From a virus, in IMG/VR virus record IMGVR_UViG_3300017963_000404, positions 1 to 43,007 of that record: a stretch of 43,007 nucleotides of DNA, one strand, 5' to 3'. Position 1 is the first letter of the stretch. Every line of letters begins with the position of its first letter. The translations under genes and the position numbers were made by a program. Below, in pieces: positions 1 through 43,007 of this stretch. The notes below the pieces were generated by a model. The model did not search any database. It was not told where the DNA came from and worked only from the letters and a program-made list of their open reading frames with translations.

Positions 1-101
1 GATTGTCCGCTGGATGTCCGCTGGAAAACGCGATTGTCCGCTGGACAATCATCCTGGATGTCCGCTGGAAAACGCGATTGTCCGCTGGATGTCCGCTGGA
101 A
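1..101. repeat. Terminal direct repeat identical to 42907-43007
   Basis: The first 101 bases match the last 101 bases exactly. Either a circular or circularly permuted genome was written out with an assembly overlap, or the phage has a short direct terminal repeat. The overlap falls in the repeated origin region, where assemblers break and close graphs. The initiator reading frame also continues correctly across the join, so I favour circular closure. Confidence 0.9.
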
Positions 102-145
102 AACGCGATTGTCCGCTGGACAAACATCATTGTCCGCTGGACAAT
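1..145. repeat. Iteron-like array, left part (candidate replication origin)
   Basis: The 9-bp core TCCGCTGGA occurs perfectly at 6, 17, 37, 61, 81, 92, 112 and 133, and two more copies lie before the junction at the right end of the window. Distances between cores are 11, 20, 24, 20, 11, 20 and 21 bp, close to one or two helical turns. Several copies sit in a longer palindrome: GATTGTCCGCTGGACAATC at 32-50 is perfect with 8-bp arms, and 109-123 and 129-145 are shorter versions. The array lies inside the coding sequence of the putative replication initiator. By analogy with the lambda origin inside gene O, I infer that the initiator binds here. The repeats are seen directly; the origin function is inference. 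Confidence 0.75.
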
Positions 146-527
146 CATCTTCACTGCGAAGTTTGCGCTTTCTCTCGCGGTCAGCCACCCGGCGCTCAAT
201 GACTTTGCCGCCATATTTTCCCCAAGTCGGCATTACGAGCCCATCATCAGTCTCGGTGAGGTATTCTGCCGAAATCAGCCCGCGCAGAAATAAATCAGGG
301 TCGCCAGGCCATTGCGCCATATCGGCGATGTCTTCGGGATCTAATTGACCCAGCAGACCATCAGGGTACTGCTTGGCTATTTCCAAGAACAATTCAATCA
401 CATACCAATAGACCGGTACCGAGGCCTGATGGCCGATCATCCGCTTCAATCTTCGAGTTTTCTTGTGCGCCTGGATCGATAAATGCAGCGGTATGTAATC
501 GAGCGGACGTTCTTTGAGTTTCGCCAC
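1..527 (-). CDS. Replication initiator protein, N-terminal part (gene continues at the right end)
   Basis: The gene starts with GTG at 527, about 7 bases after an AGGGGGGGG tract that can serve as ribosome binding site, and stays open to base 1. After removal of the 101-bp overlap it continues in the same frame at 42906 and stops at 42438, giving about 331 residues. Residues 1 to about 125 look like a winged-helix replication-protein N-terminus (motifs DYIPLHLSIQAHKK and VPVYWYVIELFLEIAKQ, as in Lin1244/DUF4373-like or replisome-organiser proteins). Residues from about 125 to 200 are a linker translated from the DNA repeats, giving peptides such as CPADN, VFQRTSSGQS and RFPADIQ as the same DNA is read in different frames. 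The DnaB-type helicase gene follows. The role in origin binding and helicase loading is inferred from domain look and context. Confidence 0.75.
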   Translation of the reverse strand, partial: MAKLKERPLDYIPLHLSIQAHKKTRRLKRMIGHQASVPVYWYVIELFLEIAKQYPDGLLGQLDPEDIADMAQWPGDPDLFLRGLISAEYLTETDDGLVMPTWGKYGGKVIERRVADRERKRKLRSEDDCPADNDVCPADNRVFQRTSSGQSRFPADIQDDCPADNRVFQRTSSGQ

Positions 528-792: not shown

Positions 793-868
793 TGCGTATT
801 AGCTCACCTGGTAGAGCAACTGACCTGTAATCAGTGGGTAGCTGGTTCGAATCCAGCATACACAGCCA
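793..868 (+). tRNA. tRNA-Thr (anticodon UGU)
   Basis: A full cloverleaf can be drawn. The acceptor is TGCGTAT with ATACACA (one C-A mismatch), the D-arm is GCTC/GAGC with GG in the loop, the anticodon stem is ACTGA/TCAGT, the T-arm is GCTGG TTCGAAT CCAGC, and the CCA end is encoded at 866-868. The anticodon is TGT at 34-36, which reads ACA codons. Position 33 is C where T is nearly universal, so the loop reads CCTGTAA. It is the only canonical tRNA here and lies alone between the replication leader region and two leftward small genes. It may supplement host tRNA, or be partly decayed because of the C33 and the acceptor mismatch. Confidence 0.85.
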
Positions 869-8240: not shown

Positions 8241-10358
8241 TCATCGGCCTTGTTCATAAAGCTTGAGTTTCTCTGCAGCTGTTAGGGCGCGGTCATATAC
8301 TCTACCGTGTTTGACATAACCGTCTAGGTATTGGACCACTGAAGTAAACTCGACCGCTCCAAAAGTTATGCTGTCCCGGTTCGCTATTTGGCCTAACCAA
8401 TCGCCATCAACACCCGAAATAACCTCACTCAGAGTGCACGGTTGTCCATCCAGATCGATATAATAATTGGAATCATCACTAGAAAATGTGACCATATGCC
8501 AGGCCCCTGTAGTGACTGTACCTGCGGCGCAGGATGCAACATCGATACTGTTTTGCAAAGTGGATACCCTAACCCGTGCAAACGGTAGCGATGTAGACGA
8601 CTCAATAGACATGTATAATATATGAGCAGTACTTGCGTGGTCAGCTGAGCCAAAGACGGCAGAATCGCCTGTGAGGGTATCTAGGTAAATCCATGCGTTT
8701 ATCGTTCCGGCCGAATCGCCACTGCGCCAGTCTGATACAGTGTATTTCGCATAGTCACTATTGCCGTCCAAGGACATTCCGGTAGCATCGAGCGCCGCAG
8801 TACCCTGCAGCGTCATCGTTGGAACGCCGTCTGGTACCCTGTCATTGGGGTAGGTACCGTCGGTGTAGGCGGAGGTGAACGGCATATCCAGCACCAGGCC
8901 TTTGTGAAGCGAATCAGTGCTTGCGGCGATGACTCGGCTGCCTTGGGTGTATGCCTGTGCAAACTCAGCTGCCGATACTACCCTGTTGTAAAGTTTTGGC
9001 CCGAAAAACGAACCGCTACACCATCCGCCAGATCCAGGTATTGTTCCTAATACCAGTGGTTCCGTACCATTGACCACGCCTGTGTAAGATCCAGTTGAAT
9101 CAGTTAAGCAGGAGATATCTTGACCGTTAATATATATTGTAATGCCGCTGGGAGATTCGCTGCCATCGTAGGCAAAGCCGAAATGGGTCCATGATCCCTC
9201 ATAAGCTGTTATTGCAGTATCACTGTAACAAAGGATACGGTTTGACGCCGTATTCGTGAACAAGAAGAGTGCTAATACATCCGATGAATTCGCGCCAAAG
9301 GCCCATTCTCGAATACCTGCAGTGTCATCCTTCACGATCATCCAACAACTAGTGGCGTCAGTCATATTGGCCCATACGCTACCCGAGAACGGCTTGTCGT
9401 TACCCGCTCCATCTGTTGGACTAAACACATCTGCGTCGCCAAAGTCGATATAGTCGGATGTACCATTTAGAGTCACGCCGTCGGCACCAAACGTTGGTGG
9501 AGTTCCCGTTGCAGTACCATGGTTACTGTACGGTGTTCGATCACTCGCTACCGTTGCGCTTTGCAGGTATCCGCTAATCAATGGTGCATCAAGCACCAGG
9601 CCCTTGTAAAGCGACCCAGTGCTTGCGGCGATGACTCGGCGGCCTTGCTCATACGCCTGAGCAAACTCGGTAGCAGTCCACTCCCAATCATTGACTCGAA
9701 CGCCTTGTATTTTCCCAGACAGATTATACTGCTCGCCAGCGGCCCTTATGAGGGCGCCAACTGCGATGTTGTCCCGATTCGCTGCATCGGCGAAAAAATC
9801 TCCATTGTCAGATCCATTGACGACTGAGTGAGCCGCGAGCGCCCCGTTGATATAAAGGAGCCATCTAGATCCATTGGTTGTTACACCTATGTGGTAAAAT
9901 GTCGCCGTGCTCAGGGTGCTATCGGTACAGACAGTGGAAAAAACGCCAGCTGCTTTTTTGACGTTAAAACATGCATTTCCAGTACTGCTAATATAAAACA
10001 TAACCACATAGTCGTCGGTAGCTGTATCTGCAGAGGTAAAAACCGCAGCAATGAGACCAGGCAACGAATCAAGATAAACCCAGGCTGATATTGAACCGCT
10101 CGAAAGTGCACCGCTCCAATCTGATACAGCCAAAGAAAACGATTCTGATCCGTCTAGTGTAACGCCGTCCGAGCCTAATACTGGTGTACCTGTTTTGGAC
10201 GTTAAGTGGTAGCCGTATGGCGTTCGGTCGCTAGGTACGTCGCTCGCTTGCAGATACCCGCTGGTCAGTGGTGCATCAAGCACAAGGCCTTTGTGAAGCG
10301 AACCAGGGCCAAATTGAGCCCCAAGCAAAAACGGCAGTAGCAAAATGAAACGTTTCAT
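8241..10358 (-). CDS. Exported protein with three LamG/concanavalin-like domains
   Basis: A 705-residue protein with a signal peptide (MKRFILLLPFLLGAQFG) and three tandem copies of a roughly 220-residue LamG-type lectin domain. Each copy opens with a version of SLHKGLVLDAPLTSGYL, has a DRTPY-like motif soon after, a GVTLDG strand, an ISAWVYLD-type strand, and ends near TATEFAQAYEQGRRVIAAST. LamG domains bind glycans or proteins, so this is a candidate receptor-binding or surface adhesin. ATG 10358 follows AGGTG; upstream codons are not supported. A signal peptide on a fibre-region protein is unusual. The DNA is visibly AT-richer than neighbouring tail genes, which suggests separate acquisition. 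Confidence 0.75.
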   Translation of the reverse strand: MKRFILLLPFLLGAQFGPGSLHKGLVLDAPLTSGYLQASDVPSDRTPYGYHLTSKTGTPVLGSDGVTLDGSESFSLAVSDWSGALSSGSISAWVYLDSLPGLIAAVFTSADTATDDYVVMFYISSTGNACFNVKKAAGVFSTVCTDSTLSTATFYHIGVTTNGSRWLLYINGALAAHSVVNGSDNGDFFADAANRDNIAVGALIRAAGEQYNLSGKIQGVRVNDWEWTATEFAQAYEQGRRVIAASTGSLYKGLVLDAPLISGYLQSATVASDRTPYSNHGTATGTPPTFGADGVTLNGTSDYIDFGDADVFSPTDGAGNDKPFSGSVWANMTDATSCWMIVKDDTAGIREWAFGANSSDVLALFLFTNTASNRILCYSDTAITAYEGSWTHFGFAYDGSESPSGITIYINGQDISCLTDSTGSYTGVVNGTEPLVLGTIPGSGGWCSGSFFGPKLYNRVVSAAEFAQAYTQGSRVIAASTDSLHKGLVLDMPFTSAYTDGTYPNDRVPDGVPTMTLQGTAALDATGMSLDGNSDYAKYTVSDWRSGDSAGTINAWIYLDTLTGDSAVFGSADHASTAHILYMSIESSTSLPFARVRVSTLQNSIDVASCAAGTVTTGAWHMVTFSSDDSNYYIDLDGQPCTLSEVISGVDGDWLGQIANRDSITFGAVEFTSVVQYLDGYVKHGRVYDRALTAAEKLKLYEQGR

Positions 10359-10366
10359 CGTGGCAC

Positions 10367-10852
10367 CTAGTTGAAATGTACCGAGCAGAGAACTAGGCCA
10401 GGGCTCAGGGTGGTCTCTAAACAATGGCCGCACTCTTGGAAGTGCTTTTGGGTCGTAAATGGCGCCGCTGGCAAAGTCTCAGCGACTGCCATACCGACAG
10501 CACCAACCGAGTCTGCAGCGACCGGTGATCGGATAAACCACTCACGAGTGGCCGCTGTGGCTGAGTAGATATAGGCCACCAGATATTTGACGATCCAGCA
10601 ATCAGCACCGTCTCCAACTTGATTGCCGTCATCGTCTCCAAAGACCACACCGATTATATCAGGCTCATCGTTGCCGACGTACGTGAACGCATAGTCAACA
10701 GCCGATGACGGGTGGACGATATAGCCCTTTGTCGTCGTGCCACCGGTCTTATTCGCCATCTTGTAGGCGAGGCCGCCATCAGCCGTAATACCGACCTTGC
10801 CACCAGGAGCAATGGCCACCATGCCGCTCGTTGTCCGCCCAGTGGGTATCAT
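10367..10852 (-). CDS. Hypothetical fibre-region structural protein
   Basis: A 161-residue protein starting MIPTGRTTSGMVAIAPGGKV. Short glycine-rich strands (GGLAYKMANKTGGTTTKGYI) and many beta-prone segments suggest a virion surface protein. Two cysteines lie at ECGHC near the C-terminus. It is coupled to the upstream gene by ATGA at 10849-10852. I do not recognise a named family. Confidence 0.55.
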   Translation of the reverse strand: MIPTGRTTSGMVAIAPGGKVGITADGGLAYKMANKTGGTTTKGYIVHPSSAVDYAFTYVGNDEPDIIGVVFGDDDGNQVGDGADCWIVKYLVAYIYSATAATREWFIRSPVAADSVGAVGMAVAETLPAAPFTTQKHFQECGHCLETTLSPGLVLCSVHFN

Positions 10853-12344: not shown

Positions 12345-13571
12345 CTAGCCGGCGATATCAACGGTGAAGTTGAATAGCTGGGCAGAGTTTCCGCCAGCGG
12401 ATATTGAAAACTGGACGGTGACAACGAGGTCCAATGATGTTGTTGTGTCTACCGTTACACCAGCTGTTGTCACATAAGGGACAACGAGTGGCGTTGCGCC
12501 AAGATAGGCGTACGACATTACGCCACTGGCATACTGGACCCCAGCTCCACCAATCGAATTGACCCGATGATGAAGATCGATCACAAAAAAACCATCATCG
12601 GCAGCGGCAATATTAGCCCTGGAGAAAATGACCGGGCCGCTTAGACCACCAAGCCTGACTCTCAAATCGTAGGTACCACTGACCACGCTCGCGTTACCGC
12701 CAGCCTTGAGGCGGATACTGTCACCAACTTTGAGCGAATTGGCTGGGATTGTGTACGAGCCAGTACTGAACACAGTCTCGGTGGTCGTCGTGTTGATCGA
12801 TGCCGACACTCCATTGTTCGCCACATTATGGACAAGGCCAGTCCAACCGTTGCCATCGTAGGCACGAAAACGCCCTCCGGTGCTGTGCGGATACAGCCCG
12901 CCTTTCTCTGGCGAACTGGCGTCACTGTTCTGCGGATGTACATAAAGACTGGTCCTCACCGGGCTGGCTGCTTTACCAAATGCCATGACCCCGTAACCAT
13001 CTTCAAAGCTTAGGCCGCTAACCCCAGCGCCAGTGCCATCTCCGGTGCCCTGGACACCGATTCCGTTAGAGGCTCCGCCAGTGCCTTTGACACCGATCCC
13101 ATTGGACGAGCCGCCAGTGCCGCTGACCCCATCGCCGATACCGTCGCCAAGACCGACAACACCAGCCCCGTTGCTACCGCCACCAGTACCCTTGACGCCA
13201 GGTTCACTCCCGCCACCCTCTCCCTCAACACCTATTGCGTTGGCCGCGCTATCTCCGACACCCTTGACTCCCGTACCAGTGCCCTCGCCAAATCCCTCGA
13301 CACCCTTGCCATTCGTTGCGCCACCGGTGCCCTTGAGACCTGTGCCATTCGTTGCGCCACCGGTTGCATCGATACCCGCTCCGGCGCCCGTCCCAACGGG
13401 AGTCTGGAGATATTGCATCCAGGTGTAGATGTTGTTGAGCAACCAGTTGAGCTTGCGGGCTGCCGGCCTGGTCGCGACGGCGTAGCCGGCGGCCTTTTCG
13501 CCAGGCGCAGGTTCGACTGTCGTATCAACGTTTGTTGCCCACTGGGGTAGTTTCGTTGGTTGTTCGGCCAT
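12345..13571 (-). CDS. Tail fibre with glycine-rich repeats
   Basis: A 408-residue protein starting MAEQPTKLPQWATNVDTTVE, an N-terminus typical of phage fibres that attach to the baseplate. Residues about 60-180 are imperfect 11-12-residue repeats of the type GVKGTGGASNGIG, expected to form an extended triple helix or beta-helix stem. A C-terminal domain from about 185 has beta-sandwich-like strands and a GGLYPHSTGGRFRAYDGNGW region. It likely forms the distal adhesin stem. Confidence 0.75.
   Translation of the reverse strand: MAEQPTKLPQWATNVDTTVEPAPGEKAAGYAVATRPAARKLNWLLNNIYTWMQYLQTPVGTGAGAGIDATGGATNGTGLKGTGGATNGKGVEGFGEGTGTGVKGVGDSAANAIGVEGEGGGSEPGVKGTGGGSNGAGVVGLGDGIGDGVSGTGGSSNGIGVKGTGGASNGIGVQGTGDGTGAGVSGLSFEDGYGVMAFGKAASPVRTSLYVHPQNSDASSPEKGGLYPHSTGGRFRAYDGNGWTGLVHNVANNGVSASINTTTTETVFSTGSYTIPANSLKVGDSIRLKAGGNASVVSGTYDLRVRLGGLSGPVIFSRANIAAADDGFFVIDLHHRVNSIGGAGVQYASGVMSYAYLGATPLVVPYVTTAGVTVDTTTSLDLVVTVQFSISAGGNSAQLFNFTVDIAG
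13030..13390 (-). repeat. Imperfect DNA repeats coding for the fibre's Gly-rich stem
   Basis: Units of about 33-36 bases recur with variation, reading GCCAGTGCC, GATCCC/GATTCC and GTTGGA-like blocks on the plus strand. They encode the GTGGxxNGxGV peptide repeats. Such arrays can expand or contract by slippage and change stem length. Confidence 0.6.
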
Positions 13572-29581: not shown

Positions 29582-31093
29582 CTATTTTTCTTCGTCTGGT
29601 TCCGGATTGTCCTTTTTGGGTTCATCGCCAGGATTATCCCCTTCCTCGGATTTCTCCTCTGGCTCGGAATTCTTCTCCTCGGGCCCCGATTCCCCCTCCT
29701 CGGGATTTGGCCGCAGCTCCATGCCCGGGATTTCCTCGGCTGGCTTGAGCTTGTCCGCTTCGCGCGCCTCGGTATCTAGCTGGATGTCAACCGAGAACTC
29801 GTCGCCCGCATAATGGCTGTTGGCGGCCTCCTCCGCGGTATAGACATCGCGGTCAATATTCAGGGCATCGGCCTGGGCAACCGCCAGTCGCGTTTTGGCC
29901 TGCTCGCCTTGCGATTCTTGCCACAGGGTATTCCACTTGACGGCCCAGCCCTCGAGTTCCTTGCCCTTGGTCGGTCCGCGTTTCGATTTTTGCAGGTAGC
30001 GGTAGAACCTCTCCACTGGCTCGGTCAGGTCATCCTGGTCGCCTTCCATGGTGTCGTAAAAGATGGCCAGGTCATTCTCACCGGTGGCATTCATTCCGGC
30101 CGGCGATCGGCCCATGAGCACCGTGACTGGCCAGCCGAGCGCGCCGGCGAGGCGAACGTCCCAACGCTCGAGCAGCTCTTTGGCGCCGGACAGCGGGTTG
30201 CCCATTGGCTCCACCGATTCGCCATCGGCATCGAGGGGAATCATGTTCACAGCGGATTTCGCCTGGTTCATCAGCATCAGGCGTTGCAAAACCAGATTGT
30301 CTTTGTCGGCCGCCAGCCGCTTGGACAGCTCTTTGATTTTGTAGAGCATGGTTCCCATGTTGCCGAGCGAAATGGCTGTCCCGGAATACGCCATGCTGAA
30401 ATCACGCACGACATCATAGACGCTCGTGATGGCCGAATCGTTCCAACCCTGGAGGTCGCGCTTGCGCTGCTTGGGCGTCTCGACTCCGTCAAATCGCAGG
30501 ACCCTCGACGCGTGCACAATGGGCTGGGTTTGCAGCTGCATGGCCGCGGATGCGCCCTCCTGGCCGGCGAGCCCAGTGATTGAGGTCGCGGCCGAAAACA
30601 AGATTTGGTAGGTTTCGGGTTTGTTGAAGTTGGCGCCGAATTCCGTATTGACGCTCTCAATTTGGAGGTCCCATCTGTCGAGCACGACCAGGGCTTCGAT
30701 TTCCTGGATTCGCTCCTCGTTCACTGGCTCGTCCATGGGGCGACCGTCGTTGATGACCATGATGACGAGCGCCGAGCCATGCAACCTCGCCCACGTGATC
30801 GCCTGCTTGACCGATTTCTTGATGCCCAATTTGCGACCGGCTTCGAGGATATCGGCAGCTGCCTGCGGGTCGTCGACTCCGTGGATTTGAAGCCATTTCC
30901 TGGTCATGGTCTTGGCCGGCAAGTCGCAAATCCGGCGAATCATGTCGTCGCCTGAATAGAGATTGTCCATCTCCTCGCGGGACCACGTCATTGGCCCACT
31001 GCCATAGGCGCTTTGCCGAGGGTCTTTGCCAACCACCCCGAGCCCCGTCAGCAAATTGACAAAACCATCAGTGACAAATTCGCGCAGGCTCAT
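29582..31093 (-). CDS. Portal protein (DUF1073-type)
   Basis: A 503-residue protein. The N-terminal region (REFVTDGFVNLLTGLGVVGK, ICDLPAKTMTRKWLQI) and the core with SPAGMNATGENDLAIFYDTM match DUF1073 portals. The C-terminal 60 residues are acidic and low complexity (PEEGESGPEEKNSEPEEKSE). ATG 31093 overlaps the terminase stop. Confidence 0.9.
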   Translation of the reverse strand: MSLREFVTDGFVNLLTGLGVVGKDPRQSAYGSGPMTWSREEMDNLYSGDDMIRRICDLPAKTMTRKWLQIHGVDDPQAAADILEAGRKLGIKKSVKQAITWARLHGSALVIMVINDGRPMDEPVNEERIQEIEALVVLDRWDLQIESVNTEFGANFNKPETYQILFSAATSITGLAGQEGASAAMQLQTQPIVHASRVLRFDGVETPKQRKRDLQGWNDSAITSVYDVVRDFSMAYSGTAISLGNMGTMLYKIKELSKRLAADKDNLVLQRLMLMNQAKSAVNMIPLDADGESVEPMGNPLSGAKELLERWDVRLAGALGWPVTVLMGRSPAGMNATGENDLAIFYDTMEGDQDDLTEPVERFYRYLQKSKRGPTKGKELEGWAVKWNTLWQESQGEQAKTRLAVAQADALNIDRDVYTAEEAANSHYAGDEFSVDIQLDTEAREADKLKPAEEIPGMELRPNPEEGESGPEEKNSEPEEKSEEGDNPGDEPKKDNPEPDEEK

Positions 31094-32685
31094 GAGACCA
31101 AACCTTCCAAAAATGACATGCCATCTCCTCCACGGAGATGATTCAAAAGTTGAGTCATTGCGTCAACCTCGTCGTCGTTTGCTGCATTTGGGAACGTCGT
31201 TACCATGTGAATCAAAACCAACACCCACGGGTATATGTCAGGATGCGGCAAATAGACATTCCCGGCCTGAATCAACGGACTCACTGCATGGGCTCGAGCC
31301 TCTTTGCTGCCATGGGGCTCCACCGGAATGAAACCGCCTATATCGTCCTCGAGCGCGGACATCACCGCTGGCCCGTTGGCTTTGTCCTCGACGAGCTTGC
31401 CGTTGCACGATGGGAAATCCACCGACATCGCTCGGACAGCCGCCAGGGTCCCGAGGAAATCCATTCGCCGGCAAACGGCCTGGAGCAAAAAGCGATTCGC
31501 TCGCTGGATGCCCCAGGTCTGCCCCGCGACTCGGTCGGCACGGGTCGTGCCTTTGAAAGCCATATCCCAACTCTGCCAAAGCTCGTCAAAGCGGGTAGGC
31601 AGCTCCCGCTGCTCGTGGAAATGGATCGAACCATCGGGCAGCTTGGTCTGGTATTTGTTTGGCCGCTTGTCGCTGCGCCGATACCAGAATCGGAACCAGT
31701 GCTTTTTGAAAATCCCGCCACCCGGGGGCGCTGGCTTCTGGTTGTGTTGGCCGGCGAAGGCATATTCGCCTAGGTCGACCTTGGCCTCCTCGATGACCGA
31801 CTTCGGGAACTTTTCGGGAAAGAGCAACTCCTGCGGCTCAACCCGAGGGTCCTTGAAAATGGGTGTGACGCACCGGTCGTCAGGGTCAAACTCGGTGGGC
31901 AGGCACAGGTGAACGTAATTGCCACGCCGAATCAGATGGCCGCTGGGGTCGTTCTCATGTAGCCGCTGCATGATGCCAATCCGTCTACCCGTAGCCATGT
32001 CGTTGAGTCGCGAACTCATGCGCTTGTCCCACCACGAGATTGCCTTCTGAAGTTCGATCGCACTCGGGAATTCGTTGACGTTGAGCGGGTCGTCAAAGAC
32101 GACGCAGTCGCCACGGAATCCAGCACCGGCGCCACCGACCGACAGCGCCAACCGGAAGCCCCTGGCCGTGTTCTCGAAAAACTCTTTTCGATTGGCGTCG
32201 CTCTTCAGGTACCACTGAGGCCTGAAGGTGCGCCGATACCAGCCGCTCTTGAGGAGGTCACGGCATCGGATCGAGTCACGTATACTGAGGCTCGCTGCGT
32301 AGGTACAGAACAGGAATCGCCAGGTCGGGTCATGCAGCCAAACCCAACAGGGGAAAAACACGGCCGCGATGAGCGACTTCATGTGGCCGGGCGGTATGTT
32401 GATCAACAGCCGGCGAAACTTGCCGAGGAACACTGCCTCGAGATGAAGGCACACAGCATCTAGATGCCAATTCCACACCAGGGGTGTGCTTGGCTCCAAA
32501 ACGTGCCACGCAAGCTTGGTGAATTCGATCAGACTCCCCCTGGCCGCTTCGGCTGCTGACCCCCGCTCTTTCTCGGCGCGACGTGTAGCCAGGTGGCTAT
32601 CAATCGTCGTTAGCGCTCTCCTCAGCAGCAAGTGTGGATCGGAGATGTTCGAGGATTGTTGTGGGTAGTTTCTTGAGCTGCTCAT
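31090..32685 (-). CDS. terL: Terminase large subunit
   Basis: A 531-residue ATPase-nuclease that pumps DNA into the prohead. Walker A is NIPPGHMKSL at residues 96-105 and Walker B is CVVFDDP at 194-200. The C-terminal nuclease has acidic motifs in QSWDMAFKG, KLVEDKANG and NDDEVDAM. The start used lies 86 bases inside the small-subunit gene; a later TTG near HLLLRRA is an alternative. Confidence 0.92.
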   Translation of the reverse strand: MSSSRNYPQQSSNISDPHLLLRRALTTIDSHLATRRAEKERGSAAEAARGSLIEFTKLAWHVLEPSTPLVWNWHLDAVCLHLEAVFLGKFRRLLINIPPGHMKSLIAAVFFPCWVWLHDPTWRFLFCTYAASLSIRDSIRCRDLLKSGWYRRTFRPQWYLKSDANRKEFFENTARGFRLALSVGGAGAGFRGDCVVFDDPLNVNEFPSAIELQKAISWWDKRMSSRLNDMATGRRIGIMQRLHENDPSGHLIRRGNYVHLCLPTEFDPDDRCVTPIFKDPRVEPQELLFPEKFPKSVIEEAKVDLGEYAFAGQHNQKPAPPGGGIFKKHWFRFWYRRSDKRPNKYQTKLPDGSIHFHEQRELPTRFDELWQSWDMAFKGTTRADRVAGQTWGIQRANRFLLQAVCRRMDFLGTLAAVRAMSVDFPSCNGKLVEDKANGPAVMSALEDDIGGFIPVEPHGSKEARAHAVSPLIQAGNVYLPHPDIYPWVLVLIHMVTTFPNAANDDEVDAMTQLLNHLRGGDGMSFLEGLVS

Positions 32686-33108: not shown

Positions 33109-33183
33109 TGGAGCGCAGGGGTAGGATTCGAACCTCCACCTGTTGCCTGGTCAGCAACCGCACAACCGTTGTGCTTCCTGCGC
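33109..33183 (-). tRNA. tRNA-like element, probably degenerate
   Basis: On the minus strand a cloverleaf can be drawn: acceptor GCGCAGG with CCTGCGC, D-arm GCAC/GTGC with GG in the loop, anticodon stem GTTGC/GCAAC, T-arm GGAGG TTCGAAT CCTAC (one mismatch) and an encoded CCA at 33111-33109. Unusual points are an extra C between T-stem and acceptor, no T at position 8, and G at position 33. By position the anticodon is ACC (Gly); if the loop is widened to place T at 33 it reads GAC (Val). The 5' half lies inside the end of the Mom-like gene, whose stop codon falls in the anticodon loop. It may be a decaying tRNA or a tRNA mimic. Confidence 0.55.
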
Positions 33184-33888
33184 GCCTTTGCCCTTATACA
33201 TTGTCGCGCCGATTTCGCGAATTCGTGCGAACGGTATTGGTTCAACAGTCAATCGCTTTTTGGCTTGCTCGTTCAAAAAGTAGATGTACCTGAGCTGGTA
33301 TCCTTCTAGAATTTCTGCACCAACCAATTCAACAAATCGCCTCCAACTCAAGCGCCCACCCGTCACATCGTAATACGATTTACCGTCAAGTTGATCGCGT
33401 CGCAATGTAGGGCTAGTCTCGACGGTCATTTTATGAATGATATCACCATTTTTCAACCGTGCCAAATTGGTGGACTTTTTGATACCAGTCAGAACGAAAC
33501 CCGAGGCGCGGTAAATAGCACCATCTCCGCATTGGGTGGCGTCGGCAAACGAAATAATCCATTCAATATCAGGCCTATTTTTTCGCAAGATACGCATCGC
33601 GATTGCCAAGGCCCTGCTCTCGCTATTCCTGGGCATCGCGTCGGAAAACGCCAATCTGTTGAGCTCAAGGAAACCATCCCATTTTGTCCCAGAGACAAGC
33701 CCGATAATTTTCCGTTTATCAAGGGATGGTCCGAATTGCATAGCGCCTTCAAGTCGGCCACCATAGAAAACGCCGATATGCAGCTGACTGTTTCGCGTGA
33801 CAGAACCGCTATAGTGTTCACGCTTGATTACAGCCTCAGCCTCACTCCTTGTTATCGGTCGCAGAACAATCGTCTTCGCTTGGCCCAT
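33151..33888 (-). CDS. Mom-like adenine modification protein (GNAT fold)
   Basis: A 245-residue protein related to phage Mu Mom, which changes adenines of phage DNA to a methylcarbamoyl form and blocks restriction enzymes. Visible family segments are AVIKREHYSGSVTRNSQLHI, GVFYGGRLEGAMQFGPSLDK, FLELNRLAFSDAMPRNSESR and EWIISFADATQCGDGAIYRA followed by SGFVLTG. ATG 33888 follows GGAGAG; upstream codons in frame are inside the ParB-like gene. The DNA looks AT-richer than its neighbours. The ParB-like gene upstream and overlap of 47 bases suggest joint action. Its stop lies inside the tRNA-like element. Confidence 0.75.
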   Translation of the reverse strand: MGQAKTIVLRPITRSEAEAVIKREHYSGSVTRNSQLHIGVFYGGRLEGAMQFGPSLDKRKIIGLVSGTKWDGFLELNRLAFSDAMPRNSESRALAIAMRILRKNRPDIEWIISFADATQCGDGAIYRASGFVLTGIKKSTNLARLKNGDIIHKMTVETSPTLRRDQLDGKSYYDVTGGRLSWRRFVELVGAEILEGYQLRYIYFLNEQAKKRLTVEPIPFARIREIGATMYKGKGAQEAQRLCGC

Positions 33889-34522
33889 TGAAACTCTCCG
33901 CAATAACCAAGAGTGCACGTCCATTGAGGTTATGGCCGCCATCTAGGTTTTTTTTCGCCTTTTCTATCGCTCGCCGTATAGTCGCTGCCGCAGCGGCAGA
34001 AAGTGAGAAAGTCATCGTCTCGAACTCCGATACCTCGCGCGAGGGAACCGAATCGAATGCCTTGGACCAGTCTGCCTGGGATACGGCCACCCGGTCATAG
34101 AGCAACTTTAGGTTCATTGCCTCATACATATCGTCGCTACGGTCGCGTATTTTCGCGATAATCTCTGCTGTTTCGGGAATCCATCTACCAGCTATTTCCT
34201 CGTTGTTCGCGGCGAGGTTGGCGGCCGCCTCCTTGTCCTCGTCCCACGACACCTTGCGCACGGCGAAGCGGCTACCGTCAGGCAGCTCCACGAAGTCCCG
34301 GTCCCCGTACGACTTCAGCTCGGCCCCCAGCTCCTTGAGCTCATTCAGCCGCTGGTGCCCACAGACGAGATTGCCCGAGCGTTCGTTCCAGACGATTCCA
34401 GATATGTCGCCAAATTGGTCAAGCGAATATCGCAGACCCTTCTTGGCCTGTTCAGATATAGTGCGAGGATTCGTCGGAGATGCCCGTAAATCTTCAAGTT
34501 TTTTTAACTGGTGTGTCTTCAT
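33842..34522 (-). CDS. ParB-like nuclease-domain protein
   Basis: A 226-residue protein. The N-terminal ParB/Srx domain shows LEDLRASPTNPRTISEQAKK, GLRYSLDQFGDISGIVWNER and the box II motif VCGHQRLNELKELG. The rest is charged and helical. Such single-domain ParB proteins are common beside phage DNA methylases and Mom-type genes and are not partition systems here, as no ParA is present. AAGGAGG lies six bases before ATG 34522. Confidence 0.75.
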   Translation of the reverse strand: MKTHQLKKLEDLRASPTNPRTISEQAKKGLRYSLDQFGDISGIVWNERSGNLVCGHQRLNELKELGAELKSYGDRDFVELPDGSRFAVRKVSWDEDKEAAANLAANNEEIAGRWIPETAEIIAKIRDRSDDMYEAMNLKLLYDRVAVSQADWSKAFDSVPSREVSEFETMTFSLSAAAAATIRRAIEKAKKNLDGGHNLNGRALLVIAESFNGPSEDDCSATDNKE

Positions 34523-41179: not shown

Positions 41180-42448
41180 TCACCAGTCCAGGAATTGCTG
41201 CGTTTCTTTTATCCATCGAAGTCGTAATACTTTGGTTGGTCCGTTGCGCTGCTTGGCCACATTGAGCTGAGCCTCCTGGGGCTCCGAGTAATCCCGGTCG
41301 TAATACTCCGGTCGGTAGAGCAAAACCGCGTTGTCAGCGTCCTCTTCGAGATTGCCGGAATCGCGAAGGTCGGAAAGTCGCGGCATTGGCGGATTCCGAC
41401 TCTCGACCGACCGATTGAGCTGTGCCAGGGCGATCACATGGCAACCGAACTCCTTTGCCAATGCTTTCAGCTCTTTACCGACGTCGCCAACCGCCAAGTC
41501 TCGCCGCTCGGCCGTCTTGGTTTTGACGAGCTGGAGGTAGTCGACCACCACAAGCTGAACTTTGTTTAATCGGCGCAGGCCTGCCCGCATTGCGTCGACA
41601 TTGAGCTTGGGCCGATCGTCAATTAGCAAGTCGAGGCGAAAAAGCTCGTTGATCGCCTCGGTTATTTCGCCACGGACATGCAGCGCGGCGACCATATGCT
41701 TCTCGGTAGCGGCCTCGGCGCATATCATGCGGCGGAGCAGCGCCGTGTCTTTCATCTCCAGCGAGAAGAACGCGACGCTGCCATGATGGCGTTGCTTTGC
41801 GGCATATCGCGCGAACCTAATAGCGAGAGCCGTTTTACCCATCGATGGCCGGCCGGCGAGAATCGTCAGCTCGCCTTTGTGCAGCTCGAGGAAACGGTCC
41901 AATACCCCGATTTCAGTTTTGACGATTGGGCCAGCCTTCCCTTCGTGCTCGGCCTCTAGTTCTGACAGCGTTTGCGGAATCAATTCTCTGATTGGCTTCA
42001 GCCCGTTGGTCCCAGCCATTGGTTCCATGATTTGCTCGAGCAACTGAAGCTCAGCACGGATTTCGCTAGGCTCCGTCCTGTCAATTTTTTTGAGCAAATC
42101 CGAAGCCCGCTCACGGAATTTACGAATCTGAGCTCGTTCCGCCAGGCGTCGAGCGTGGTGATTGAGATTAGCCGTGGTTGCGCACGATTCCTGGAGTTCG
42201 GCAACCTGTGGGGCCAAACGCACGCCCCAACCGTGTAGCTTGTCTGTCACGGCGATGGCGTCGATGGGCGCCTGAGCGCCTATCAGGTCGTCAACCGCCA
42301 TGGCGATTTGCCGGTGGTTGGCATCGAGGAACATGTCGGCATGGACCCTTTCGGCCCATTCCGGTACCGGTTGATCCTCGAGCCAGAGCATCGATCCAAG
42401 CACCGAACGTTCCAAATCGTAGACGTTTTCGACTGTTTCACTCATCAA
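41180..42448 (-). CDS. dnaB: DnaB-like replicative helicase
   Basis: A 422-residue hexameric helicase. The N-terminal helical domain (residues 1-130) starts YDLERSVLGSMLWLEDQ, a DnaB hallmark. The ATPase domain has Walker A GRPSMGKT at 199-206, the FFSLEM segment, Walker B VVVDYLQL at about residues 295-305, a Q/R-type motif in LAQLNRSVESR and the KQRNGPT arginine finger region. The gene starts inside the end of the initiator gene (42438 versus 42448), so the two are translationally coupled, as in many phages that use an initiator to load DnaB. Confidence 0.9.
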   Translation of the reverse strand: MMSETVENVYDLERSVLGSMLWLEDQPVPEWAERVHADMFLDANHRQIAMAVDDLIGAQAPIDAIAVTDKLHGWGVRLAPQVAELQESCATTANLNHHARRLAERAQIRKFRERASDLLKKIDRTEPSEIRAELQLLEQIMEPMAGTNGLKPIRELIPQTLSELEAEHEGKAGPIVKTEIGVLDRFLELHKGELTILAGRPSMGKTALAIRFARYAAKQRHHGSVAFFSLEMKDTALLRRMICAEAATEKHMVAALHVRGEITEAINELFRLDLLIDDRPKLNVDAMRAGLRRLNKVQLVVVDYLQLVKTKTAERRDLAVGDVGKELKALAKEFGCHVIALAQLNRSVESRNPPMPRLSDLRDSGNLEEDADNAVLLYRPEYYDRDYSEPQEAQLNVAKQRNGPTKVLRLRWIKETQQFLDW

Positions 42449-43007
42449 CAGGCGCCTCCCAAGCGTAGTTCGGTTCTTTTACCGCACTTCCGTTTCTTTT
42501 TGGTGGATTTTTGTAAAATTCTAGCCCTTTTTCGATCTGATCTTCGTCCCTGAGGATAGTTTTTAACCCTAGGTAGGGCGTAGCTCTGTCATTTTCACCG
42601 AGATGGAAAGGACTCTTGTGAAACCCCTCCATCGATTCGATCAAGGTTTTCACGTCGTAACCGTTCATCAGCCATTTCTTGACCAGCGAATACCGACTGT
42701 CCTTGCTTTTGAGGGTCGCTGACATTCGTTGATGGTGCTGCCGGTATGCGCCCCAGTACGTTTGAATCTTCAGCGACAAATCCGAAACCGACATGTCTTT
42801 TATTTTTCTTTTACTCTTACTCTTACTCTTACTCTTACTATGTGCGGACTCTTCTGGAATTCCGTTGGACAATCGCGTTTTCCGCTGGATGTCCGCTGGA
42901 AAACGCGATTGTCCGCTGGATGTCCGCTGGAAAACGCGATTGTCCGCTGGACAATCATCCTGGATGTCCGCTGGAAAACGCGATTGTCCGCTGGATGTCC
43001 GCTGGAA
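42438..43007 (-). CDS. Replication initiator, C-terminal part (continues from the left end)
   Basis: The frame from 43007 to 42438 is open and in the same register as the left-end segment starting at GTG 527 (561 bases between codon starts across the 42906-bp circle). After the repeat-coded linker and an SK-dipeptide run come residues typical of replisome-organiser C-termini: SLKIQTYWGAYRQHHQRMSA, SLVKKWLMNGYDVKTLIESM and TPYLGLKTILRDEDQIEKGL, ending WEAPVDE. These helices probably contact the DnaB helicase encoded next. Neither window end alone shows the entire gene. Confidence 0.75.
   Translation of the reverse strand, partial: FQRTSSGQSRFPADIQDDCPADNRVFQRTSSGQSRFPADIQRKTRLSNGIPEESAHSKSKSKSKSKRKIKDMSVSDLSLKIQTYWGAYRQHHQRMSATLKSKDSRYSLVKKWLMNGYDVKTLIESMEGFHKSPFHLGENDRATPYLGLKTILRDEDQIEKGLEFYKNPPKRNGSAVKEPNYAWEAPVDE
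42797..42840. repeat. AT-rich pyrimidine tract with hexanucleotide repeat, candidate unwinding element
   Basis: The plus strand is nearly all pyrimidine apart from A, with ACTCTT in four tandem copies (about 42813-42838), preceded by TTTTATTTTTCTTTT. The complementary strand is purine-rich. It lies right next to the iteron array, 20 bases away, and codes for the SKSKSKSKRKIK stretch of the initiator. This matches the lambda-origin plan of iterons followed by an AT-rich, strand-asymmetric unwinding region. Confidence 0.6.
42861..43007. repeat. Iteron-like array, right part
   Basis: A degenerate copy TCCGTTGGA at 42861 and perfect TCCGCTGGA cores at 42881, 42892 and 42912 onward; from 42907 on the sequence repeats bases 1-101. 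An inverted pair, CGCGTTTTCC at 42874-42883 and GGAAAACGCG at 42898-42907, brackets two cores. Spacings of 11 and 20 bases continue the rhythm of the left part. Confidence 0.75.

Follow-up and report, generated by a model that had tools for sequence, protein, structure and literature searches.

Replication origins located inside the gene of their own initiator are already known from lambda, the Stx phages, SPP1 (oriL) and plasmid pSK41. In lambda (gene O) and the Stx phages, dyad iterons placed about 20–24 bp apart within the initiator gene are followed by an AT-rich tract with a purine strand and then by the C-terminal part of the gene (PMC7466680). The oriL of SPP1 in gene 38 (gp38, gp39, gp40) likewise combines direct repeats and an AT-rich element in an initiator gene, and the phage helicase is of the DnaB type (PMC6316719). 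RepA_N plasmid initiators such as pSK41 Rep consist of a winged-helix N-terminal domain, a central linker that encodes the origin and a C-terminal effector domain, with the iterons in the center of the gene (PMC5703833). Repeats were also noted in an O-like gene of phage MD8 (PMC8508860). The basal unwinding system of bacterial oriC (DnaA boxes, GC cluster, DnaA-trios) also places double-stranded sites beside a short-period, strand-specific tract; its initiator is a different one and its period is 3 nt, versus 5/6 nt in the genes studied here.

The window, that is, the whole 43,007-nt viral stretch analysed here (positions 1 to 43,007 of record IMGVR_UViG_3300017963_000404), contains a gene with this type of organization. 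Its DNA-binding domain at the N-terminal end is followed by the iterons, then by a strand-biased tract and the C-terminal domain, and the next gene is dnaB. We read this region, with a probability of about 0.85, as a phage replication origin lying within its own initiator gene, in the part that codes for the linker; the N-terminal module of the initiator would read TCC-N3-GGA. The lambda-like origin proposed in the initial annotation is supported as an architecture, while homology to lambda O was not detected: the 331-aa product matched no family in Pfam (E 1) or NCBIfam, and its PHROG matches are to other initiator families. Unlike in lambda, the eleven cores of the window include tandem pairs at 11 bp, the gene that follows is dnaB and not a P-type loader acting on host DnaB, and a basic helix lying beyond the wing is proposed as the reader. 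SPP1, which we compared by layout, differs in that its loader is separate and that it has oriR as a second origin. The fold resemblance to RepA_N initiators is weak (Z about 5), the RepA_N Pfam family (PF06970) is not matched, and pSK41 Rep is reported to read its boxes with the winged helix-turn-helix (HTH), whereas the predictive residues here are in the helix after the wing.

The ends of the record form an exact 101-bp direct repeat, which confirms the 42,906-bp circle of the initial annotation. On this circle, a minus-strand frame that starts with the GTG at 527 runs open across the junction as far as 42438 and encodes 331 aa. The next gene, overlapping the initiator end, is dnaB, as had been claimed (Table 1). 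The minimum of the detrended GC skew, proposed earlier as a check, falls at 630. This is some 100 bp upstream of where the initiator gene starts and favours an origin here, but gene orientation switches at the same place.

Table 1. Positions of the features of the putative origin region in the window.
Feature	Position	Strand	Basis or remark
Terminal direct repeat, left copy	1–101		End identity; record end falls in iteron array
Iteron array, first part	1–141	+	9-bp cores at 6, 17, 37, 61, 81, 92, 112, 133
Initiator N-terminal domain: winged helix, then long basic helix	150–527	-	phrog_9474; start GTG 525–527
Predicted basic helix, residues 102–125, proposed recognition helix	153–224	-	AlphaFold2 and specificity positions
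Lys120 codon, position +4 of the proposed specificity code	168–170	-	Covariation analysis
Asp116 codon, position 0 of the proposed specificity code	180–182	-	Covariation analysis
DnaB-type replicative helicase	41180–42448	-	Pfam: DnaB_C, E 8e-73; DnaB N-terminal, E 1.6e-12
C-terminal domain of the initiator, in the second piece of its gene	42438–42796	-	phrog_16167 over residues 159–308
Strand-biased AT-rich tract, presumed unwinding element	42797–42840	+	AGTAAG hexamers and then an A-rich part on the coding strand
Iteron array, second part, across record end	42861–42906	+	Degenerate core 42861–42869; perfect cores 42881, 42892
Terminal direct repeat, right copy	42907–43007		End identity

Elsewhere in the genome, a tRNA-Thr gene (anticodon TGT; 793–868, plus strand) lies between the initiator and the rightward genes. 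The large terminase subunit (31090–32685, minus strand) is closest to that of Aeromonas phage vB_AsaM-56, at 42% identity, so that by this gene the phage has no close cultured relative. A 730-aa protein (8241–10433, minus strand) with three Laminin_G_3 (concanavalin-like) domains is probably a receptor-binding or tail protein, and a further protein of the tail region (12345–13571, minus strand) contains an internal glycine-rich repeat and had no Pfam match. A Mom-family protein is encoded at 33151–33942 on the minus strand (Pfam PF25680, E 4.2e-53). Mom-type proteins are responsible for the adenine modification of phage Mu DNA, and the DNA of the present phage may be modified.

The word TCCGCTGGA is found 16 times in the linear record, always in the end regions (chance mean 0.51; largest shuffle 3). 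When the duplicated end is removed, ten perfect TCCGCTGGA cores and one TCCGTTGGA at 42861 remain, with spacings of 20-11-20-11-20-24-20-11-20-21 on the circle. This is the number of perfect and degenerate cores reported in the initial annotation across the genome junction in the initiator frame, while the span given there, 1–145, covers only part of the feature. Of the palindromes described at the same time, GATTGTCCGCTGGACAATC is present, but the full outer palindrome occurs at some cores only. The cores occupy all three reading frames of the initiator gene and share a single face of the double helix, indicating that the constraint acts on DNA; the best period is 10.55 bp (R 0.89), a fit equalled by 4 of 20,000 random sets of spacings. 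The copy number depends on assembly across a repeat and, since removal of one or two 31-bp units truncates the initiator protein, the assembled count is supported modulo 3. In a codon-shuffle test, lags of 20 (p 0.012) and 31 (p 0.001) were significant in the window and the 11-bp lag was not (p 0.10).

The strand bias claimed for the adjacent AT tract was also confirmed, as its + strand is devoid of G (T26 C11 A7). At the junction between the last iteron and the tract, GGGGCTACC, GGCGCACGTAACC or GTCCGCACRTAG recurs in many relatives (e.g. L071, L073, L029), with a counterpart in the window near 42838–42852, and this junction may be a separate conserved element. Lambda (L241), phiPSA1 (L236) and epsilon15 (L237) have other N-terminal domains and the same order of repeats and purine-strand tract, the latter being AGAGAAGAGAAG in phiPSA1 and epsilon15. 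The repeat-then-tract layout may extend beyond the initiator family of the window.

Both halves of the protein match PHROG families named 'replication initiation protein', residues 11–129 matching phrog_9474 (E 2.7e-21; E 4.5e-21 for the N-terminal part by itself) and residues 159–308 phrog_16167 (E 5.4e-10), in support of the putative initiator. All members of a set of 28 relatives matched the phrog_9474 profile too. The AlphaFold2 model of the N-terminal domain, obtained with 126 relatives in the alignment (mean pLDDT 78), consists of a winged helix (helices 64–70 and 77–86; hairpin 91–98) followed by a long helix at 102–125. When this model was compared to solved structures with VIA-align, 4pql, 4pt7, 5kbj, 4pta and 2vn2 gave Z scores of 4.4–5.1, no better than those of unrelated winged helices. 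The solved neighbours at Z about 5 are assorted winged helices, among them the N-terminal domains of RepA_N initiators and DnaD, and a family assignment from the fold was dropped. A Foldseek search of BFVD returned 'Primosomal protein 1' and 'Replisome organizer' entries, which fits an initiator and is not decisive.

Searches of viral contigs with the joined protein alone found no relatives, and a profile of relatives was needed. A scan of viral contigs for two tandem cores identified eight contigs. In several, the tandem falls within a gene that is laid out as in the window (N-terminal domain, RxxDxERK, iterons, simple-repeat tract, C-terminal domain). A scan for any three TCC-N3-GGA spaced by 11 bp gave 60 hits, mostly in genes with this layout. 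Because motif scans select for the motif, we repeated the search in genomes and viral contigs using only the protein sequence of the N-terminal domain. The survey comprised 107 non-redundant initiator-type genes, in which the 180 bp after the N-terminal domain were analysed with the codon-shuffle test (p 0.05). An 11-bp periodicity was significant in the linker of 81 of the 107 genes and a 5/6-bp tract in that of 96, compared to 4/98 and 6/98, respectively, in the region of these genes that encodes the C-terminal part, and to 0/5 and 1/5 in HNH-fused copies of the N-terminal domain. In the first 100 bp after this domain, lag 11 was significant in 83/107 genes and every other lag in at most 14. 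The aggregate autocorrelation peaks at 11 and 22 bp, and then at 5, 10 and 15 bp further downstream. The tract is made of NNACC pentamers in 74/107 genes and is purine-rich, like that of the window, in 15/107.

Relatives that have the gene but lack the repeats, which the initial annotation had named as evidence against an origin, do exist, but they are few: leaving apart the HNH-fused copies, which are not initiators, neither array nor tract was found in 3/104 (L100, L110 and L200). In the fused copies (L075, L104, L188, L220 and L223), an HNH nuclease domain replaces the initiator C-terminal domain and the iterons are absent. The array-bearing genomes carry titles of Bacillota, Synergistota, Chloroflexota, Verrucomicrobiota, Acidobacteriota, Actinomycetota, Fibrobacteres and a gammaproteobacterial MAG, host labels that are provisional since many of these genomes are metagenome bins. 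Cultured members are few, with ten INPHARED records, including Paenibacillus phage Harrison, matching one N-terminal domain of the family. The idea that every relative has TCC-N3-GGA proved wrong: only 51/160 have it at 11-bp spacing, and the rest have other cores with the same period.

The cores found among the members are TCC-N3-GGA, GTCAC, GTGC, GTAAC, CGACC and GTACG. The suggestion that the specificity of the window may be new is half right, since tandem TCCGCTGGA recurs in initiator genes of other phages and the family of initiators concerned, which is large and little studied, has at least five specificities, that of the window among them. To relate these classes, which we defined from short words, to the protein, mutual information was scanned over offsets -90 to +9 of the N-terminal domain, with class labels taken only from DNA at least 10 codons downstream. 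The best predictors were helix positions 0, +4 and +7 (excess mutual information 0.79, 0.70 and 0.39; next 0.25), +7 being partly confounded because its codon falls in the first iteron in the GTCAC class. In the TCC-N3-GGA class, position 0 is Asp in 47/48 members and +4 is Lys in 48/48; the GTCAC class has Asn (23/27) and Lys (23/27), the GTGC class Asn (15/15) and Met (13/15), and the CGACC class Glu (8/8) and Ser (8/8). The reverse test, in which members were grouped by residues alone, recovered the same residue-core pairs from the enriched DNA words. The window, with Asp116, Lys120 and TCC cores, follows the code. Applied to 56 new non-redundant members held out, the four-pair rule made 25 calls, of which 24 were correct; the exception is L284, which has Asn/Lys and yet TCC iterons.

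Position +3 is a nearly invariant Arg and most members have Arg at +8. The spacing 0, +3, +4, +7, +8 is that of Asn235, Ala238, Ala239, Ser242 and Arg243, the base-contacting residues of the bZIP protein Gcn4 (PMC6545440). Homology to bZIP proteins was rejected, as a profile of 30 helices found no bZIP chain in the PDB, and the likeness to Gcn4 is probably a convergent analogy. By this analogy, the basic helix probably sits in the major groove and reads a half-site.

The region could also be an origin whose specificity is read by the winged HTH, the helix residues following by shared descent. The N-terminal model does contain both HTH and wing, RepA_N initiators are among the solved folds nearest to it (one of these structures includes DNA), and pSK41 Rep is reported to contact its boxes via the winged HTH (PMC5703833). 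We consider this unlikely, since no N-terminal position, HTH included, reaches half the information of 0 and +4. All fifty disjoint cross-class pairs with at least 50% identity differ at 0 or +4, and so do 99–100% of cross-class pairs matched for identity (100% at 40–60% identity). Same-class pairs differ at 0 in 11–14%, and the neighbouring positions -2, +2 and +6 vary about equally in both types of pairs. The tree needs at least 30 changes of iteron class, so the association is not that of one clade. This tree, built on a short domain, is poorly resolved and provides five independent pairs on supported branches (median p 0.06), of which on average 4.9/5 are concordant and none is opposed. 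An association arising at the DNA level, with the helix codons themselves being part of the array, seems very improbable to us. Codons +7 and +8 (TCA CGC) of the GTCAC class do belong to the first iteron word, but an overlap of iteron words with codon 0 is confined to the TCC class, where 11 of 48 members show it, and the position-0 Asp is encoded by GAT in 16/47, indicating that the link between residue and core is not mere sequence overlap. Relabelling the classes from codon +10 onward gave the same result.

We regard it as improbable that the repeats, instead of being an origin, serve as an operator through which initiator and dnaB expression is autorepressed. One sub-lineage (L024, L040, L041 and L058) has a second TCC-N3-GGA cluster, about 40–110 bp before the initiator start codon, which suggests autoregulation in these members, and some GTCAC and CGACC members also carry their cognate words upstream of the initiator. 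The array of the window, however, is in the middle of the gene and is followed by a conserved strand-biased tract, which is the layout of the lambda origin and SPP1 oriL, and operator and origin roles can coexist. Short-read assemblies often break in repeats, and the contig ends do fall inside the repeats here. A protein-level repeat or an assembly artefact is nevertheless scarcely credible and was rejected, given the cores in all three frames and the truncation of the protein on loss of a repeat unit; in addition, some relatives carry the array in the middle of a contig.

For the origin reading with a helix-borne specificity, our computations show the joined gene, the iteron array and how it is phased on the helix, a layout that is conserved among relatives, and the covariation between helix residues and core. 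Physical binding, oligomer formation, tract melting and helicase recruitment are steps that we infer. The N-terminal module (winged helix plus basic helix) would occupy the TCC-N3-GGA iterons in an ordered array along a single face of the DNA, with Asp116 and Lys120 of the basic helix setting the specificity. The array-bound initiator would then melt the adjacent G-free tract, and the C-terminal domain would recruit the phage DnaB, the product of the next gene, the last two steps being modelled on lambda (PMC7466680) and SPP1 (PMC6316719). In the open-access literature we found no binding, melting or replication data for any family member, nor a description of the family-wide 11-bp array, the pentamer tract or the helix code.

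Taken as a whole, the sequence data make it likely that a large family of phage initiators, present in genomes assigned to several bacterial phyla, reads its origin through a bZIP-like basic helix that follows a winged helix, that a code at 0/+4/+7 sets the half-site, and that the origin switches along with it, initiator and origin specificity co-evolving in one gene. Initiator and origin usually occupy separate loci, which makes their joint change difficult to study. In the family of the window both are in one gene, switches are many and a switch is predictable from two residues. The family would thus offer a natural set of variants with which protein-DNA co-evolution could be tested, as well as orthogonal plasmid replicons and phage incompatibility, and the origins of many uncultured phages and prophages would become readable from sequence alone.
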